Program-made: the position numbers and the translations under genes
Shown here: positions 53,047 through 60,403 of the stretch, one piece after another
How the letters are laid out: each line of letters starts with the position of its first letter
Position numbering within the stretch: the first letter of the stretch is position 1
Notes under the pieces: model-generated
The model's database searches: none
Seen by the model: only the letters and a program-made list of their open reading frames with translations
Told to the model about the DNA's origin: nothing
Assembly (NCBI GenBank): GCA_945861465.1
Contig: CAMAVB010000008.1
Span: 1 to 60,852, forward strand
DNA length: 60,852 nt
From: Candidatus Kuenenia stuttgartensis
GTDB taxonomy: Bacteria; Planctomycetota; Planctomycetia; Planctomycetales; Planctomycetaceae
Direction of reading: 5' to 3'

Positions 53047-55128
53047 TCAGGTCATGTGATCTACAGCACTTGATGGTGCAATTTCATAGCGGCAAGGCTG
53101 CATAGAGTATGATGCTCGACCTTGAGAAAGACTGCGAATCTGATTTGAATAGCCGAACATTTCCACCAGCGGTGCCTCACATTCAATCACACACAGGTCT
53201 CCACGTCTGTACGAATTCATGATCACCGCACGCCGAGAATTCAAATCCGATTGGATATTTCCTAGGAATTCCTCAGGTGTCACAACTTCCAACGACATGA
53301 TCGGCTCAAGGATTTCCATCTTGCCGTCGCTCAGAACTTTTCGAAATGCGTCGGCTGCCGCCATACGAATGGCGACCTCGTTGCTTTCGCCTTCCCGATA
53401 GCTCACCGACGTGATTGTCAGGCTTAATCCCATTATCGGATTTCCGTAAACTCCGCCACCTTCTGCTTCTTTCTGAATTGACTCAAGCAGGATCTGCAGC
53501 GACGGTTTGGGCATCGCATCCGGTGCCAGCCGATGTCCTACGGTAATCCCGGTCGTGCCATCTTTGATTTCCCGCGCGAGCAACGAAACTCCGAAACCAA
53601 TCACACCAGACGGCAGATGTTTCGAAAAATCGATATTCACGTTGATTTCGCCGGTCAATCGCTCGCGGTAGCTGACTCGGGGTTTGTGGAATCGGACCTT
53701 CAACTTGAAATCACGCTCCATCCGGTGACGAATGACTTCCAGATGCAATTCACCCATTCCACTGATAATTGTCTGCCCAGTTTCGGCATTTGATTTGACG
53801 TGAAATGTCGGATCCTGGCGCTCCAGACGCTTCAGTGTTTCATCAAGTTTCTTGCGGTCATTGCTCGATTCCGGCTCAATGGCTACCGAAATCACCGTCT
53901 CCGGAAACACGATGGATTCCAGTGCAATCGGTGACTGAGCGTCGCACAAAGTGTCGCCGGTCGCAGAATCCCGCGGTCCAATAATGCCGCAAATGTCACC
54001 TGTTTCGACCATTTCTACCTTTTGTCGCGAATCTGACTGAATATGCCAGAGCTGCGTGACCATCTCTTTTTTACCGGTACGCGGGTTCAACAGCTTGGAG
54101 TTTCCAGTCAGGACCCCGGAATAAACACGCGCAAAATATAAATCTCCATGAGATTCCGCCTGCACCTTAAACAACAGCACACAGACAGGTTCATCCACTG
54201 AAGGCTTGCGAACGGTCGACTGCCCCGCCTGTTTTCCGGACGGAATTAAGCCTTCCACTGGGGGGCGATCGAGCGGGCTTGGCAGAAAGTCGCGGATGCC
54301 ATCAAGCACCGGCTGTACGCCTATATAATCGAGCGACGCTCCGCAGAAGACAGGGTGCAAAGTTCCCCTGAGCGTGGCCTTTCGGATGGCGGAGATCAAG
54401 ACATCGTGCGGAACAGAATCGCTTTCCAGGCAGGCAGCCATGACGTCGTCATCGATTTCTGACAAAACGTCGTTCAGTTCCGACCGCCACAACACGGCGT
54501 CCTCTTGACAATGTTCCGGAATCTCTTCTACGCGGAATTCCAGACCACGGGATTCCGCGTCCCAATACATGGCTTTCATTGTCAGAAGATCAATCACACC
54601 CGTGAATCCGTCGGTGTTTGTCGTCGGACCTGCTCCGATTGGAATCTGTAATGGCAGCGTCTGGCACTTCAAACGGTCGCGAATCTGATTCAGAACGCGG
54701 TCAAAACTCGCTCCCATGCGGTCCATTTTGTTGATAAAGCAAATTCTGGGCACGCGGTATTTCGTGGCTTGCCGCCAAACGGTTTCGCTTTGAGCCTCAA
54801 CTCCCTCAACCGCGCTGAAAATGACGACCGCCCCGTCTAGCACTCGCAGGCTGCGTTCGACTTCCGCCGTAAAATCCACATGTCCCGGCGTGTCAATGAT
54901 ATTGATCGTGCAGCCTTTCCACGGACAAGTCACCGCCGCTGAATAGATCGTGATGCCTCGCTGCGCCTCTTCAGGATCGAAATCGGTCTCCGTGGTTCCG
55001 TCATCGACGTTCCCCATCCGGTGCGAAGCCCCGGTGTAGTAGAGGATTCGCTCAGTCGTGGTCGTCTTTCCGGCATCAATATGAGCGATAATGCCAATGT
55101 TTCTGATAGTTTCAATGGGGCGAGACAT
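53047..55128 (-). CDS. fusA: Translation elongation factor G
   Basis: 693 residues. GTP-binding motifs: [19 protein letters not shown] (G1), [10 protein letters not shown] (G2), DTPGHVDF (G3), NKMDRMG (G4). Domain IV has [14 protein letters not shown] and the C-terminus has [20 protein letters not shown], as in EF-G. It drives translocation on the ribosome. The switch region reads [20 protein letters not shown], closer to the spd-type or mitochondrial-like EF-G forms described for spirochaetes, planctomycetes and deltaproteobacteria than to E. coli EF-G; a tree is needed to place it. rpsL, rpsG and tuf, its usual neighbours, are absent. Confidence 0.95.
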
Positions 55129-55304: not shown

Positions 55305-55862
55305 TCAGTCGTCTGCGAGGCGTCCCAGTATCTCTGGCGATTGTCTGATGACGAGCAGTGCGTGGTGCAGGCGGGACTTGACGGTTCCCAGCGGGACATC
55401 CAGAGCGACCGCGATTTCTGGTTGAGTCATCTCGTCGACAAACCGCATCAGCAGGATTTCGCGATGCGCGTCCGACAAACCGGCAAGCGTTTGAGTCAAC
55501 TCGTCGCGGTTCGCAGAATCTGACGACGGTGGTTCAGGGATCAGGGACAGCGTGTCCTGATTTTCAGTCACCGACCGCAGCCGTTTTCGCCGCGCGGCCA
55601 GTGCGAGATTCCTGACAGCCGGATACAAAAACGTCGTAAGTGCTGCGGTGAGCTCAAAACCTGGGAACTTGCGGACGAAATACCCGAACGTTTCCTGCAG
55701 CACGTCCAATGCGTCCTCGTGGTGCCCCGTGAACCGCATCGCCAGCCGCATCACCCAGTCGCGATGGCGGAAGTACAGCACGTCAAACGCAGCCGCGTCG
55801 CCTTGATTGAGAGCTGCCACCAGCTGCAGGTCCGTCCGATTTTCGTGCGGTGCCGGTGACAT
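55305..55862 (-). CDS. ECF-type RNA polymerase sigma factor
   Basis: 185 residues from ATG 55862; a longer frame to 55955 is unlikely. Region 2: LVAALNQGDAAAFDVLYFRH, DALDVLQETFGYFVRKFPGF. Region 4: LSDAHREILLMRFVDEMTQP, EIAVALDVPLGTVKSRLHHA, a helix-turn-helix. There is no C-terminal extension. It diverges from the DUF4349/dockerin/cohesin-like/VIT genes across about 215 bases, so it may control them. No classical zinc anti-sigma domain is adjacent, but the membrane dockerin protein at 56900 is a candidate. Confidence 0.92.
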   Translation of the reverse strand: MSPAPHENRTDLQLVAALNQGDAAAFDVLYFRHRDWVMRLAMRFTGHHEDALDVLQETFGYFVRKFPGFELTAALTTFLYPAVRNLALAARRKRLRSVTENQDTLSLIPEPPSSDSANRDELTQTLAGLSDAHREILLMRFVDEMTQPEIAVALDVPLGTVKSRLHHALLVIRQSPEILGRLADD

Positions 55863-56078
55863 CGTGAAGAATTGTCCAATGACCAATGCGAAATGACGAA
55901 TGACACCGGAATTGGTGAGTGGAATGGCGCCAGCCACCAGTGTCTGCGTCGCCACAAAACTCGCTGCTTTTCTATGACTTCAACCGGTTCAAAAAAGTTT
56001 CCAGATTCTTTGAACCATTCCGCAGTTCTGCGCACTTCAAAATGCGAAGTACGTTGAAACACTGTGTGGAGTTGAACG

Positions 56079-56903
56079 ATGTCTGTCAAATGGATGACCA
56101 TTGGGTGGTTTTTATTGCTACTGGCGATAAGTGGCTGTGCAGCGGAATCCGGACCTGGTGAATACGCGGTCGATTCCCTGCTGAGTTCGGTCGTGCCCGC
56201 AAAGTCGCCGGCTCCTGATGAAACATCGAGCGGCGAGACAAAGACGGCTCGTCATGTGATCCGTGAAGGTGAGCTGCGATTTGAGACCACCGACCGAAAT
56301 GCGACTCGAACGGAAATTCTCGGATTCGTCAAAACGCATCAAGGGTATCTGGCGGATGATCGGGAGCAACGAAATTCCAACAGTCTGGAACAGTCGATGA
56401 CCATCCGTGTTCCATCGGCAGAATTTGATGGACTGCTGGCTGACGTTTCCGCCGGAGTCACTCACTTCGATAAACGCGAGATTCGCGCGCTTGACGTCAC
56501 TGCAGAATATGTAGATATCGAAGCGAGACTGAAAACCAAGAAGGAAACGGAGTTACGTTATCGCGAATTGTTGACGCAGGCAAAAAATGTCGAGGAAGTT
56601 CTGAAGATAGAAGAGCAGATTGACAAATTGCGGGCGGAGATTGAATCCACTGAGGGGCGTTTGAGGCTGATGAAAGATCGTGAAAGTTACAGCACCTTGG
56701 CAATGTCGTTCTATGAACCTTCTGCAAAGGCGGCCGGCTTTTGGAATCGTGTGCAGGCCAATTTCCTGTTGGGTTGGCAGACTGTCGTGGAATTCACAAT
56801 TGCCGTTGTCGTTTTGTGGCCGCTGATTTTTCTGACATCACTGGGCTTATTGGCGGTCTGGTGGTTTAACAGAAAACCAATGACGAAGCGGGTGACTTCA
56901 TGA
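56079..56903 (+). CDS. DUF4349 lipoprotein with coiled coil and C-terminal membrane segment
   Basis: 274 residues. The signal peptide MTIGWFLLLLAISGCAAESG contains a lipobox (ISGC), so the protein is lipid-anchored. The DUF4349 domain (about 55-255) includes HVIREGELRFETTDRNATRT and AEYVDIEARLKTKKETELRY; about residues 160-210 form a charged coiled coil (VEEVLKIEEQIDKLRAEIES). Near the C-terminus, VVEFTIAVVVLWPLIFLTSL and GLLAVWWF form a membrane segment, followed by a short basic tail. The family function is unknown. The ribosome site GGAG is 8 bases before ATG. It overlaps the next gene by ATGA, so the two are co-translated. Confidence 0.88.
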   Translation: MSVKWMTIGWFLLLLAISGCAAESGPGEYAVDSLLSSVVPAKSPAPDETSSGETKTARHVIREGELRFETTDRNATRTEILGFVKTHQGYLADDREQRNSNSLEQSMTIRVPSAEFDGLLADVSAGVTHFDKREIRALDVTAEYVDIEARLKTKKETELRYRELLTQAKNVEEVLKIEEQIDKLRAEIESTEGRLRLMKDRESYSTLAMSFYEPSAKAAGFWNRVQANFLLGWQTVVEFTIAVVVLWPLIFLTSLGLLAVWWFNRKPMTKRVTS

Positions 56904-57391
56904 AGGATAATATGGAATTTGATGAGATCGGTCAGGAGCTGCCGGACGCGGTGAAAGCCGCTCTTCGAAAACGCTTTGGTCCTGTGCCGGATGTGCCGTC
57001 CAGCATTGACCAGTCAATTCTGGCAGATGCTCGTCGTCATTTTGAACAGCACGGTCCTGCTGCGCTGCGGTCGACAAAACGGCGAAGAGCTTCCGTGTGG
57101 CAATGGACGGCGATCGGATCCACTGTGGCTGCGGCGTGTGTGCTGTTCTTTGCATTGATGCCACGGCAACCAAATCAGGCTGTCAATATTGTAGCCACGT
57201 CAGATACGCCGGCGTCCGGTGAAGAACTCACCAGTGATGTGGACAAAAACGGCCGCGTTGACATTCTCGATGCTTTCGCGATGGCTCGTGAAATGCGTGA
57301 CGGTCTCAGTGGTTTTCGTGACATCAATCACGACGGGCGATTTGACCAGCTGGATATCGATATGGTGGCTCGGGAAGCGGTGAAGTTGTAG
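56900..57391 (+). CDS. Single-pass membrane protein with extracytoplasmic dockerin domain, anti-sigma candidate
   Basis: 163 residues. About 65 N-terminal residues (LPDAVKAALRKRFGPVPDVP, SSIDQSILADARRHFEQHG) precede TKRRRASVWQW and the TM segment TAIGSTVAAACVLFFALM. Positive charges before the segment put the N-terminus inside and the rest outside. The outer part carries two Ca-binding loops of a dockerin type I repeat: DVDKNGRVDILD and DINHDGRFDQLD, each followed by a helix. Dockerins bind cohesins. N-in with a helical cytoplasmic domain beside an ECF sigma gene recalls RsgI-type anti-sigma proteins of clostridia, which also have a sensing domain outside. That role is inference; no anti-sigma domain is recognised. 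Confidence 0.8.
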   Translation: MKDNMEFDEIGQELPDAVKAALRKRFGPVPDVPSSIDQSILADARRHFEQHGPAALRSTKRRRASVWQWTAIGSTVAAACVLFFALMPRQPNQAVNIVATSDTPASGEELTSDVDKNGRVDILDAFAMAREMRDGLSGFRDINHDGRFDQLDIDMVAREAVKL

Positions 57392-57403
57392 GTCGCAAAC
57401 GAT

Positions 57404-57481
57404 GTAGGGTGGGACCAGCGAAGCGCCGGCCCACCAAACCCCGGACATGGTGGGCCGGCGCTGTCGCTGGTCCCACCCTAC
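57404..57481. repeat. Long inverted repeat (GTAGGGTGGGACCAGCG family)
   Basis: Arms of about 33 bases (57404-57436 and 57449-57481, outer GTAGGGTGGGACCAGCG) enclose a 12-base loop. It sits between the dockerin and cohesin-like genes and can form a strong hairpin, so it may separate expression of the two. It has the look of a dispersed planctomycete repeat. Confidence 0.9.
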
Positions 57482-57503
57482 GAATTGGTGAAAGAGTAAT
57501 CCG

Positions 57504-58064
57504 ATGAATACCAATGAACCAACCAACTCCCAAAGCGGCTCACGATGCCTTCGCATCCCCTTGTGCTGGGCACTGTTGATTGCATTTGATGTCAGTCTGA
57601 TGGCGTTGACATATGCTCAGGAAGGCAACACCGGTACGGCTGATCCACCGGTGCAGAGCGTCCAGACAGAAATTCCCGGGCCGGACGATGTTGCAGCCGA
57701 CGTCCGGCGATTCGAAGCGATCGACGTGTTTGTGGATTCCGGCAACCAGCGATTGGCCGCATGGCAACTGGAAGTCAAAAGCACAGCCAACGATGTGCAG
57801 ATCGTGGGCATTGAAGGCGGTGAACATCCGGCCTTTGCCGAACCTCCGTATTACGACAAACGGGCGATGAACAATAACCGAGTCATCATCGCGGCTTTCA
57901 GCACAGGCGACAATCTGCCCAGCGGACGCAGCCGAGTCGCCCGCATTCACGTGCAGGTCCGCGGCTCCGGGGCTCGCACATGGCTGTCTGAACTGACGAC
58001 TTCGGCTACGACGGACGGCTCAAGAATTCCCGCTGAGATTTCGATTGCGAAGACGGACAGATAA
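57504..58064 (+). CDS. Secreted cohesin-like protein
   Basis: 186 residues. After a signal-peptide-like stretch (IPLCWALLIAFDVSLMALTY, ending AQE), residues about 65-180 resemble a cohesin jelly-roll: IDVFVDSGNQRLAAWQLEVK, VQIVGIEGGEHPAFAEPPYY, NNNRVIIAAFSTGDNLPSGR and VARIHVQVRG. The pattern of alternating strands with a conserved 'asset'-type VFVDSG opening matches PF00963 only loosely. Its placement one gene after a dockerin protein strengthens the call. If correct, this pair could be a non-cellulosomal dockerin-cohesin system. ATG 57504 has AAAGAG upstream. Confidence 0.62.
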   Translation: MNTNEPTNSQSGSRCLRIPLCWALLIAFDVSLMALTYAQEGNTGTADPPVQSVQTEIPGPDDVAADVRRFEAIDVFVDSGNQRLAAWQLEVKSTANDVQIVGIEGGEHPAFAEPPYYDKRAMNNNRVIIAAFSTGDNLPSGRSRVARIHVQVRGSGARTWLSELTTSATTDGSRIPAEISIAKTDR

Positions 58065-58144
58065 GTCGGCAGATTTCAGATCTCAAATTTCAAATTTCAA
58101 ATACGACAGGTCAATGACTGTTGAATCATCGAAAGGTAGTCCAC

Positions 58145-60403
58145 ATGAACATTTTCCGATCTCGAATAAGCGCCGTGATGGCATTGTGTTTCGCAGCAAC
58201 AGCGTGTGTGTTTCAGCTCGGATGTGGCCAGTCGGAACAGGCTACATCCGAATCGTTTTCCCGTGTGGCATCGAGTGTTGCAAAGAACGCCGCAAATCCC
58301 AAGCCCGGAGCAGTTGGCGGGCAAGAAAGTATTTTGTTTGATGCCATGATGGGCTCAGCAGTGGATCTTGACATTAATATTAATCCTGAGGCTGGCAGGC
58401 AGGCAATCCCCATACAAGGTCGTCCAACAGATCCTTCAGCTGTTTCGGAAAATAAAGGTCGTCCGGTCGTCGCCCGTGCTACATTCGAACTGATGCCGGG
58501 CGAAGAATTGTGGGTCATCGCGAAGGGCTCTAATCCGGCAACTCCGGCGAGTGAAGAAACACCGCCGGGATGCGGAGCCTTGATGGCCAAACTCCCGGAC
58601 TCCAAAAAGGAAGTTCCTGTACCGCTCAAGCACACAGCCGTTGTCGGAAACATCGATGGTTACATTGCCACCGTGGATGTGACGCAGCAGTTTCAGAATC
58701 CATACAACTCAAAGATCGAAGCGGTCTACGTCTTCCCTTTGCCCGACAACGCAGCCGTGAGCGAATTCGTGATGACAGTCGGTGAACGCAAAATCCGTGG
58801 CATCATTCGTGAGCGTGAAGAAGCGGCGAGAATCTACAACGACGCACGAAAACAGGGGCACGTCGCATCATTGCTGACTCAGGAACGACCGAACATTTTC
58901 ACTCAAAAAGTGGCCAACATCGAACCGGGCAAGAAGATCGACATCAATATCCGCTACTTTAACACGCTGCAGTATGACGACGGAGCTTATGAATTCGTGT
59001 TTCCAATGGTTGTCGGCCCGCGCTACAACCCACCCGCCACAACCGACGGCATCGGAGCCGTCGGGCGCGGCAACCAGGGCGTCAGCGGTCAATCCACCGA
59101 AGTCCAGTACCTGACTCCCGGAGAACGCAGCGGTCATGACGTGTCGCTGAGTCTCAACATCAACGCAGGCGTGAATATTGAATCCGTCCGCAGCGTCAAT
59201 CACGACGTCGCCGTGAAAGACGTAACTGAAACAGAACGCAGCGTGACTCTGTCGGCCAGCGATTCCATTCCAAACAAGGACTTCGTGCTGCGATATCAAG
59301 TGGCCGGCGACAAGATCAAGACGGCCATGATGACGCACAAAGATGACCACGGTCAGTACTTCACCATGATGTTGTATCCGCCGGCGGATCTTAAGAAAGT
59401 TCAGCGGAGCCCGATGGAAATGGTGTTCGTGCTGGACTGTTCGGGTAGCATGAATGGTCGCCCGATTGACCAGGCTCGCGCGGCAATATCCCATGCTGTG
59501 CAGTCACTCACGCCCCGCGATACTTTTCAGATCATCAACTTCAGTTCGACAGCGTCTCAGCTTGGTGCAGCTCCGGTGATTGCGACTCCGCAGAATATCC
59601 AGAAGGGACTGACGTACCTGAACTCGCTCAATGGGCAAGGCGGTACTGAAATGATTGAGGGGCTAAAGGCCGCGCTGGATTTTCCTCACGACGAAGGTCG
59701 TTTTCGCCTGGTGTCATTCATGACGGACGGTTACATCGGCAGCGATCACGATATGCTGAATGCGTTGTCTGACAAGCTTGGTGATTCCCGCATTTTCAGT
59801 TTCGGCGTCGGCCAGTCGCCCAACCGATTTCTGATGGATCGCATGGCCCTGATCGGACGCGGTGCTGTGGCCTATCTGAGTCTGAACGATGATCCGGTTG
59901 AGATCATGAATCGGTTCAACGAACGCATCAGCCATCCGGCGATGACAGATCTGTCGATCGACTGGGGCAACATGAACGTGACGGATGTGTATCCTCAGAT
60001 TCTGCCCGACCTGATCGTGGGCCGTCCGGTTGTCATCACGGGCCGCTTTACGGGTGAACCGAGTTCCATAACAGTCGGCGGGCGTCAGGGCATGCAACCC
60101 ACTTCGTTTGCAGTTGCCGTGGACGCAGCGGATGCGTCAAAAGAACACAAGGGAATCGCGTCAGTGTGGGCTCGGCTGAAGATCATGGACCTGATGACGC
60201 AGTTCTCACGAACACCCGATCAGGCTGCCGAACTGCAACAAACGGTAACGCAGACGGCTCTGGAATACAGCCTGATGAGTACCTTCACGGCCTTCGTGGC
60301 TGTGGATTCCATGAGCAAGACCGAAGGAGAATTCGGGACAACAGTCGCGGTTCCGGTGAACGTCCCGGAAGGTGTGAAGTACGAAACGACGGTGGAGAAT
60401 TGA
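58145..60403 (+). CDS. VIT/von Willebrand A domain lipoprotein
   Basis: 752 residues from ATG 58145 (AAAGG about 10 bases upstream). Signal peptide with lipobox, VFQLGCGQ. The VIT domain spans about residues 165-290 (VDVTQQFQNPYNSKIEAVYV, FPLPDNAAVSEFVMTVGERK, REREEAARIYNDARKQGHVA). The vWA domain starts near residue 425 with a full MIDAS: DCSGSM (about 431), a Thr in GQGGTEM and Asp in FMTDGY. The C-terminus EYSLMSTFTAFVAVD is typical of this class. Relatives are inter-alpha-trypsin inhibitor heavy-chain-like and Gram-negative sortase-target proteins with adhesive functions. It is the last gene of the cluster and could be what the sensor and pair display or bind. Confidence 0.94.
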   Translation: MNIFRSRISAVMALCFAATACVFQLGCGQSEQATSESFSRVASSVAKNAANPKPGAVGGQESILFDAMMGSAVDLDININPEAGRQAIPIQGRPTDPSAVSENKGRPVVARATFELMPGEELWVIAKGSNPATPASEETPPGCGALMAKLPDSKKEVPVPLKHTAVVGNIDGYIATVDVTQQFQNPYNSKIEAVYVFPLPDNAAVSEFVMTVGERKIRGIIREREEAARIYNDARKQGHVASLLTQERPNIFTQKVANIEPGKKIDINIRYFNTLQYDDGAYEFVFPMVVGPRYNPPATTDGIGAVGRGNQGVSGQSTEVQYLTPGERSGHDVSLSLNINAGVNIESVRSVNHDVAVKDVTETERSVTLSASDSIPNKDFVLRYQVAGDKIKTAMMTHKDDHGQYFTMMLYPPADLKKVQRSPMEMVFVLDCSGSMNGRPIDQARAAISHAVQSLTPRDTFQIINFSSTASQLGAAPVIATPQNIQKGLTYLNSLNGQGGTEMIEGLKAALDFPHDEGRFRLVSFMTDGYIGSDHDMLNALSDKLGDSRIFSFGVGQSPNRFLMDRMALIGRGAVAYLSLNDDPVEIMNRFNERISHPAMTDLSIDWGNMNVTDVYPQILPDLIVGRPVVITGRFTGEPSSITVGGRQGMQPTSFAVAVDAADASKEHKGIASVWARLKIMDLMTQFSRTPDQAAELQQTVTQTALEYSLMSTFTAFVAVDSMSKTEGEFGTTVAVPVNVPEGVKYETTVEN

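Follow-up and report, generated by a model that had tools for sequence, protein, structure and literature searches.

In Escherichia coli, the co-encoded periplasmic protein RseB binds the outer domain of the membrane anti-sigma factor RseA and controls release of the sigma factor RpoE (PMC8103513, in the excerpted text), and in Cupriavidus metallidurans the CnrYXH system comprises an extracytoplasmic function (ECF) sigma factor, a membrane anti-sigma factor with a two-helix cytosolic domain and a periplasmic sensor (PMC4598750, likewise excerpted). Here, we describe a gene set in the window, by which we mean the whole stretch of 60,852 nucleotides under analysis, contig C8 (CAMAVB010000008.1) of an 8.2 Mb genome assigned to Candidatus Kuenenia stuttgartensis (GCA_945861465.1). 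An ECF sigma gene on its minus strand is divergent from four plus-strand genes, which encode a DUF4349 lipoprotein, a membrane protein with a dockerin (called 56900, after the coordinate at which its gene begins), a secreted protein with a predicted cohesin fold (57504) and a VIT/vWA lipoprotein (58121). A check of open reading frames (ORFs) and translations placed all five genes at the coordinates claimed in a first-pass annotation, and Pfam and NCBIfam matches bore out its description of an ECF sigma gene divergent from four same-strand genes; the ATGA overlap it reported (the TGA of the DUF4349 gene overlapping the ATG of the dockerin gene at 56900), the dockerin loops, the membrane topology and the metal ion-dependent adhesion site (MIDAS) of the vWA protein were all confirmed. 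We consider it moderately likely that the locus is a sigma, membrane anti-sigma and periplasmic-partner signalling operon with a dockerin-cohesin outer interface.

Cohesin-dockerin binding is among the tightest protein contacts known, and the pair has been studied mostly as a scaffold for plant-fibre enzymes; at this locus, we lean towards a signalling rather than a scaffolding role for it. With RpoE-RseA-RseB, as excerpted, the module shares a sigma factor, a membrane anti-sigma factor and a co-encoded periplasmic partner, and it differs in its dockerin and cohesin interface, its VIT/vWA lipoprotein and the lack of a protease gene among the five window genes. The likeness to the excerpted CnrYXH system is one of architecture (ECF sigma factor, predicted two-helix cytosolic anti-sigma segment, separate periplasmic protein); the differences are a cohesin fold in the place of the metal sensor and the class I zinc domains found in distant relatives of 56900. 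Like clostridial SigI-RsgI, the module has a membrane anti-sigma factor with an outward part from cellulosome-type biology. RsgI factors are described as biomass-sensing in the available part of PMC11557425; the module, in contrast, has an ECF sigma factor, no RsgI domain and a protein-protein pair in place of biomass sensing. The RsgI/SigI kinship that the first-pass annotation proposed could not be upheld: membership is ruled out by the ECF sigma factor and by the absence of RsgI from the 23 Pfam families matched at E ≤ 0.1 by 40 dockerin proteins.

The planctosome proposal, which also concerns non-cellulosomal cohesin and dockerin in Planctomycetes, deals with peptidase scaffolds and, in the part available, treats sigma factors only as per-genome inventories (PMC6461901). 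At our locus there is a single cohesin, a dockerin on a membrane regulator and no enzyme family, which sets it apart from cellulosomes and planctosomes alike. The lipoprotein 58121 has the VIT plus vWA architecture of the TIGR03788 marine sortase targets, yet scored 524.8 bits against a cut-off of 551.65 and shows no LPXTG-type end by eye. Among the matches listed in searches of the open-licence literature, a coverage that leaves out key surveys of ECF factors, Planctomycetes and cohesin-dockerin pairs, no account appeared of an anti-sigma factor that bears a dockerin and pairs with a cohesin, though an earlier mention may exist; the listed texts joining dockerin and anti-sigma concern cellulosomes, cellulolytic clostridia and plant-fibre-degrading communities or processes.

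Anti-sigma kinship of the dockerin protein

The sigma factor matched Sigma70_r2 (41.9 bits) and Sigma70_r4_2 (51.5 bits), both above the Pfam cut-offs, and NCBIfam TIGR02937 (80.5 bits); with regions 2 and 4, about 185 residues and region 3 unmatched in the Pfam scan, it is an ECF factor. Its neighbour 56900 matched Dockerin_1 at 29.9 bits (cut-off 22.9) in the Pfam scan and at 31.3 bits in a whole-genome search. It carries two complete DxDxDGxxxxxD calcium loops, DVDKNGRVDILD and DINHDGRFDQLD, and is thus a type I dockerin by profile and loops. Dockerin_1 was matched at E ≤ 0.1 by 40/40 aligned members of the family, and strict calcium loops were counted in 99 dockerins: two in 58, one in 33 and none in 8. 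The single hydrophobic helix of 56900 has five lysine or arginine residues in the preceding 15 positions and one in the following 15, an imbalance that indicates an N-in topology and so places the dockerin outside. The same architecture recurs in the near families (about 50–60 cytosolic residues with two predicted helices, one membrane helix, a linker and the dockerin), and membrane-helix hydropathy reached at least 1.3 in 93 of the 96 non-fused dockerin proteins and 1.6 in 81 of them. The AlphaFold model of 56900 was the weaker of our two models, with a predicted local distance difference test (pLDDT) score of 75.6 and a predicted template modelling score (pTM) of 0.34; its first eight Foldseek matches were short chains of cohesin-dockerin complexes, none with E below 0.4.

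The anti-sigma assignment draws on relatives of 56900. Among the 12 distant dockerin proteins scanned, zf-HC2 exceeded its cut-off of 22.2 in three (L135, 38.0 bits; L138, 23.3; L178, 29.4), and Dockerin_1 exceeded its own in seven, including these same three, which therefore hold both domains. An HxxxCxxC motif lies near the N-terminus in 12/99 dockerin proteins. In most of the distant loci examined, the sigma gene is upstream and the cohesin gene downstream. At locus L203, the zinc anti-sigma motif is combined with a near-type cohesin neighbour. At E ≤ 0.1, but under its cut-off, the NCBIfam antisigma model picked up 23 of 40 near members, all weakly, and 8 of 10 further proteins; 56900 itself matched over residues 29–103 with E 1.8e-4 (21.6 bits, cut-off 100). 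It has no HxxxCxxC helical domain before the membrane helix, as class I factors do, and the two cytosolic helices expected of the CnrY-like class II are predicted for it by AlphaFold in a single-chain model only. Because zinc anti-sigma domains occur in some distant members and one distant cohesin passes the Pfam threshold (below), the best interpretation of the dockerin protein is a membrane anti-sigma factor, in 56900 with a reduced inner domain, that very probably serves the neighbouring sigma factor. The first-pass view of the membrane dockerin as a sigma regulator is thus supported by apparent anti-sigma descent.

Two further groups surfaced in these searches. At L064–L066, L068 and L070, larger proteins combine an N-terminus that looks anti-sigma-like by eye with long outer parts in which no dockerin was seen, and an ECF sigma gene lies within about 150 nucleotides in L066 and L068. 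Weak matches to the dockerin protein in the order search (L036–L045) were also larger and showed no dockerin, several being anti-sigma-like by eye, and were left uncounted.

Cohesin fold and conservation of the gene set

On sequence, 57504 returned nothing above cut-off in Pfam or NCBIfam, PF00963 included, and only one of 41 near members matched Pfam Cohesin (E 0.012); PDB sequence searches gave no match for the near or the distant cohesin profile and one irrelevant match for a single distant protein. An AlphaFold model built from an alignment of 41 relatives reached a pLDDT of 93.3 and a pTM of 0.86 over residues 39–186. The first 17 Foldseek matches in the PDB were cohesins or their complexes by title, two matches in all having E ≤ 0.001, and the best was a non-cellulosomal archaeal cohesin (E 3.5e-4; template modelling scores on the model 0.49–0.60). 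With VIA-align, the model matched cohesin 6kgc_A at Z 10.1 and a root-mean-square deviation of 2.9 over 122 residues, and the titles of the first 42 matches, which have 7–16% identity, all denote cohesins or scaffoldin entries that contain them. Moreover, the distant orthologue at L140, one of eight distant cohesins scanned, passed the Pfam Cohesin cut-off (24.8 versus 24.1 bits), and the near and distant cohesin profiles proved homologous (hhalign 99.7%, E 1.7e-25). Taken together, these matches assign 57504 a predicted cohesin beta-sandwich fold, in agreement with the cohesin-like character proposed for it in the first pass.

The gene set is conserved well beyond the window. Matches to the cohesin profile came from 34 of 392 genomes sampled from the phylum, 41 of 347 from the class of genome G241 and 2 of 288 from the phylum to which the Verrucomicrobiota locus L096 belongs; the distant cohesin profile matched 31 of 294 genomes of the phylum. 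Named genomes, when scanned, yielded 40 loci, most of them in Planctomycetota and Verrucomicrobiota; Fermentibacteria, Krumholzibacteriota, Acidobacteria and simply bacterium were the labels of one bin each. After removal of 20 duplicates with identical cohesin ends (128 to 108) and of L179 and L182, whose cohesin-type proteins lack both dockerin and sigma, 106 distinct loci remained. Dockerin and cohesin genes are neighbours in 102 of them, 90 have a sigma gene next to the module, and in 83 a vWA gene comes after that for the cohesin. The first-pass annotation had called for a check of synteny in other planctomycetes, and its gene set is indeed widespread in respect of sigma, dockerin, cohesin and vWA. 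Two of the outcomes that it had named as refuting, another fold for 57504 and absence of the gene set from other genomes, were thus checked, and neither was observed. Dockerin-less loci were included in the total (L051; L126; L155, with 45 nucleotides of contig upstream; and L175, a broken locus), and genes missed by the automatic rule were added by hand, namely dockerins at L123, L128 and L134 and sigma genes at L123 (broken frame) and L174. The weakest dockerin assignments, below 35 bits, are L133, L137, L176 and L177 by rule and L134 and L128 by hand; G154 (L018/L063) was treated as a chance match and not counted.

Across the 1,115,926 bases of the 106 stretches, all 92 ORFs scoring above 22 bits with the family dockerin profile were module dockerin proteins (90 by rule, plus L123 and L128), so the adjacency of dockerin and cohesin is not due to chance. 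The genes overlap or nearly touch: with mechanically assigned ORF starts, the median intergenic gap is −4 nucleotides, and 4-nucleotide overlaps join dockerin to cohesin in 34/96 cases and cohesin to vWA in 33/83. In 9 of the 16 loci with no adjacent sigma gene, the contig ends on the relevant side after at most 1.3 kb. Among the other seven, an unlinked sigma orthologue of 59–62% identity was present in G015, G019, G021 (partial) and G245, and G408 and G189 gave matches of 40–41% only. Thirteen loci, all from the family of the window, have a divergent sigma gene, and 75 have a co-directional one. The one-contig genome G014, of that family, also carries the module. The distant search yielded five new places: L178 and L180 with sigma, dockerin and cohesin, L181 with a dockerin at a contig end, and the two already set aside. 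Two loci fetched after counting are additional to the 106, one (L202, in the phylum of the Verrucomicrobiota locus) with sigma, dockerin, cohesin and a vWA gene truncated by the contig end, the other (L203) with dockerin, cohesin and vWA before the contig ends.

Individual loci vary. The Fermentibacteria genome G837 has two cohesin gene copies (L102 and L203), the second module with the zinc anti-sigma motif. The order is altered in L174, where dockerin and cohesin are followed by a directly downstream sigma gene; the locus showed no vWA gene, and its dockerin no longer has the first loop. The modules of L095 (labelled Acidobacteria) and L097 (labelled Verrucomicrobiia) are nearly identical, which suggests a mislabelled bin.

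In two lineages, dockerin and cohesin are fused. L117 holds anti-sigma segment, membrane helix, intact dockerin and cohesin in one frame, and inspection by eye showed no second signal peptide. The other lineage is a single genus (L176 and L177), whose fused dockerin lacks the calcium loops and keeps its first helix. Presence in one frame supports a functional link between the two domains.

The accompanying lipoproteins are less constant. The DxSGSM motif is kept in 75 of the 81 vWA-profile proteins of at least 450 residues, and in 58121 the MIDAS reads DCSGS in translation, with T and D further downstream. Three distant loci (L138, L141 and L178) have a different, YfbK-type vWA protein one or two genes downstream, of which only the N-terminal part lies in the stretch at L138; L141 and L178 are among the 83 counted. 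Relatives of the DUF4349 protein, which has an ISGC lipobox in translation, were found by a single-sequence search in 7/106 stretches, the window included. In the window, L050, L058, L146 and L150 the gene separates sigma from dockerin; in L129 it comes downstream of vWA and in L136 downstream of cohesin, and L057 holds a 67-residue fragment. Both lipoproteins recur in both forms of the system and neither is universal. The proposed role of DUF4349 as a core member is therefore ruled out. Of the first-pass interpretation as a whole, the gene set, the cohesin fold and the anti-sigma dockerin protein stand, whereas the DUF4349 core falls together with the RsgI/SigI kinship.

Weighing the proposed control step

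On balance, we favour an ancient transmembrane sigma/anti-sigma pathway, switched by periplasmic cohesin-dockerin contact, spread through Planctomycetota and beyond and acting in cis where the two are fused. In this pathway, the short cytosolic part of 56900 would tether the ECF sigma factor at the membrane, and its dockerin, outside the inner membrane, would be bound by the cohesin-fold protein 57504, which may be delivered along with the lipoprotein 58121. A change in the envelope would then alter the dockerin complex because cohesin or calcium is lost or another ligand captures the cohesin; calcium, cohesin loss and competing dockerins are accordingly the candidate signals. The anti-sigma factor would in turn release the sigma factor, via a change of shape or proteolysis, and the freed sigma factor would transcribe from conserved back-to-back promoters and replenish the system. 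By analogy, control would most likely be exerted by the periplasmic partner, as by RseB on RseA or CnrX on CnrY. That dockerin and cohesin bind one another in the module is likely; that their binding is also the control step is probable to a lesser degree.

Several observations weigh against this pathway. Mutual information was computed over blocks for sigma factor, anti-sigma segment, dockerin and cohesin, using the 74 joint rows left when 8 gappy ones were dropped from the 82 loci that possess all three genes; for dockerin and cohesin it was no higher than for protein pairs unable to meet: the pairs of anti-sigma segment with cohesin and of cohesin with sigma factor scored as high. Since impossible pairs scored equally high, mutual information is neutral on dockerin-cohesin binding. 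An apparent covariation of anti-sigma segment and sigma factor, obtained with near-invariant columns kept, was discarded, as once these were filtered out it rose no higher than the impossible control. As for kinship, 9 of the 12 distant dockerin proteins scanned have no zf-HC2 above cut-off and 5 no Dockerin_1 above cut-off, the antisigma match of 56900 lies far under its threshold, and its cytosolic segment lacks the zinc motif and spans about 60 residues, compared with the mean of 101 ± 33 reported for class I (PMC7406223, in the part available). Eight of 99 dockerins are without any strict calcium loop, some cohesin-type relatives (L179, L182) exist without dockerin or sigma, and the operon-side promoter pattern described below had 12 matches in the genome versus 7 for a control, giving no evidence of a wider regulon; no regulon is claimed on that count.

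An alternative is that dockerin, cohesin and vWA proteins only build an envelope or surface complex, in the manner of cellulosomes or the proposed planctosome, with the sigma factor driving its expression and the dockerin protein serving as its anchor and having no regulatory part. Other dockerins of the genome do lie on large adhesin-like proteins (FG-GAP, cadherin, RHS), and cellulase-free cohesin/dockerin assemblies have been proposed for freshwater Planctomycetes (PMC6461901, as excerpted). Yet the supposed anchor has anti-sigma domains in distant members and retains its cytosolic part, the sigma factor is kept in four genomes though unlinked, and Pfam assigns no enzyme family to any of the five window proteins, all of which make this explanation unlikely.

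Still less probable is that the cohesin is a receptor shared with the other dockerins of the genome, the anti-sigma dockerin reporting how much of it is free. In its favour, the source genome has four other dockerin matches and no Pfam cohesin anywhere, but these dockerins are unlinked and of a different subtype by eye, and three of the four adjoin their own small secreted proteins with PEP-CTERM-like ends, which are possible partners. The three are on contigs C36, C164 and C227 of genome G000 (L183, L185, L186), two of them on FG-GAP/RTX/cadherin and RHS/cadherin proteins. Their PEP-CTERM-like neighbours may form a second partner set; that these are themselves cohesins was unsupported, profile comparison with the module cohesin giving only 3.9%. 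Least probable of all, and very unlikely, is that the anti-sigma factor senses calcium through its dockerin, in the manner of an EF-hand, while the cohesin-like protein does something else: at least one strict loop is present in 91/99 dockerins and two in 58/99, but members with degraded loops (L109, L128, L174, L176, L177) are all beside or fused to a cohesin, the helix after loop 1 remains recognisable by eye in L109, L174, L176 and L177 (less so in L128), and the adjacency of a cohesin fold in 102/106 loci would be left to explain.

Promoter region, remaining features and significance

The proposed pathway switched by cohesin-dockerin contact would include self-replenishment, on which the intergenic region bears (Table 1). 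The sigma-facing pattern GA?AACTT-N15-17-GTC, chosen after viewing the same sequences, was found upstream of sigma in 7/13 divergent loci (Markov null mean 0.09, maximum 1; reverse strand 0) and in 1/75 co-directional loci. An open 4-mer dyad scan of the same upstream regions recovered GAAG-N19-GTTC in 7/13 divergent loci, against maxima of 2–3 in ten shuffles. The reverse complement of this dyad faces the operon; relaxed to TGAAC-N19-CT[CT][AC]A, a pattern also derived from these sequences, it occurs in 13 of 16 regions, comprising all 13 divergent loci (null mean 0.042, maximum 2), and is absent in the 3/3 loci with an unlinked sigma gene. For co-directional sigma genes, the upstream regions yielded no dyad above the shuffles (72 loci) and no enrichment of the sigma-side patterns (75 loci). 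The two elements of the divergent region resemble ECF-type promoters placed back to back, an arrangement suggestive of autoregulation.

Table 1. Positions of the module's genes, domains and intergenic elements in the window
Feature	Position	Strand	Basis
ECF sigma factor	55305..55862	-	185 aa from in-frame ATG; ORF extends to 55955 with GTG
Promoter-like element facing sigma, GAAACTT-N16-GTC	55976..56001	-	GA?AACTT-N15-17-GTC pattern
Promoter-like element facing operon, TGAACC-N18-CTTCA	56011..56039	+	Dyad scan; relaxed pattern
DUF4349 lipoprotein, optional member	56079..56903	+	PF14257 172.1 bits
Probable membrane anti-sigma factor with external dockerin, 163 aa	56900..57391	+	Dockerin_1, weak NCBIfam antisigma, zf-HC2 in distant relatives
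Cytosolic two-helix segment, residues 14-51, presumed sigma-binding	56939..57052	+	AlphaFold helices 16-26, 34-51; block pLDDT 83-95
Transmembrane helix, residues 69-87	57104..57160	+	Hydropathy 1.89; model helix 60-86
Dockerin, two calcium loops	57233..57373	+	Dockerin_1 matches; Foldseek
Nested perfect inverted repeat between dockerin and cohesin genes	57404..57481	.	Arms 18 and 15 nt, 100% complementary
Secreted protein with predicted cohesin fold, 186 aa	57504..58064	+	AlphaFold model of residues 39-186, VIA match to 6kgc_A
VIT/vWA lipoprotein with MIDAS	58121..60403	+	VIT 124.6 bits, VWA_3 65.7 bits

The sigma factor likely starts at the in-frame ATG at 55862, and for the vWA gene the ATG at 58145 is a more likely start than the TTG at 58121. 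A 17-nucleotide piece from the left side of the inverted repeat is present once in the window. Immediately past the sigma gene, and sharing its strand, lies an elongation factor G-like gene (53047–55128), named by eye from its sequence.

A regulator with a dockerin outside and an anti-sigma domain inside would give the cohesin-dockerin pair a role in signalling, together with an experimental handle on it. For Planctomycetota, the module provides ECF sigma factors with a testable assignment, and it offers a possible partner function for the vWA and DUF4349 envelope lipoproteins that recur next to it.

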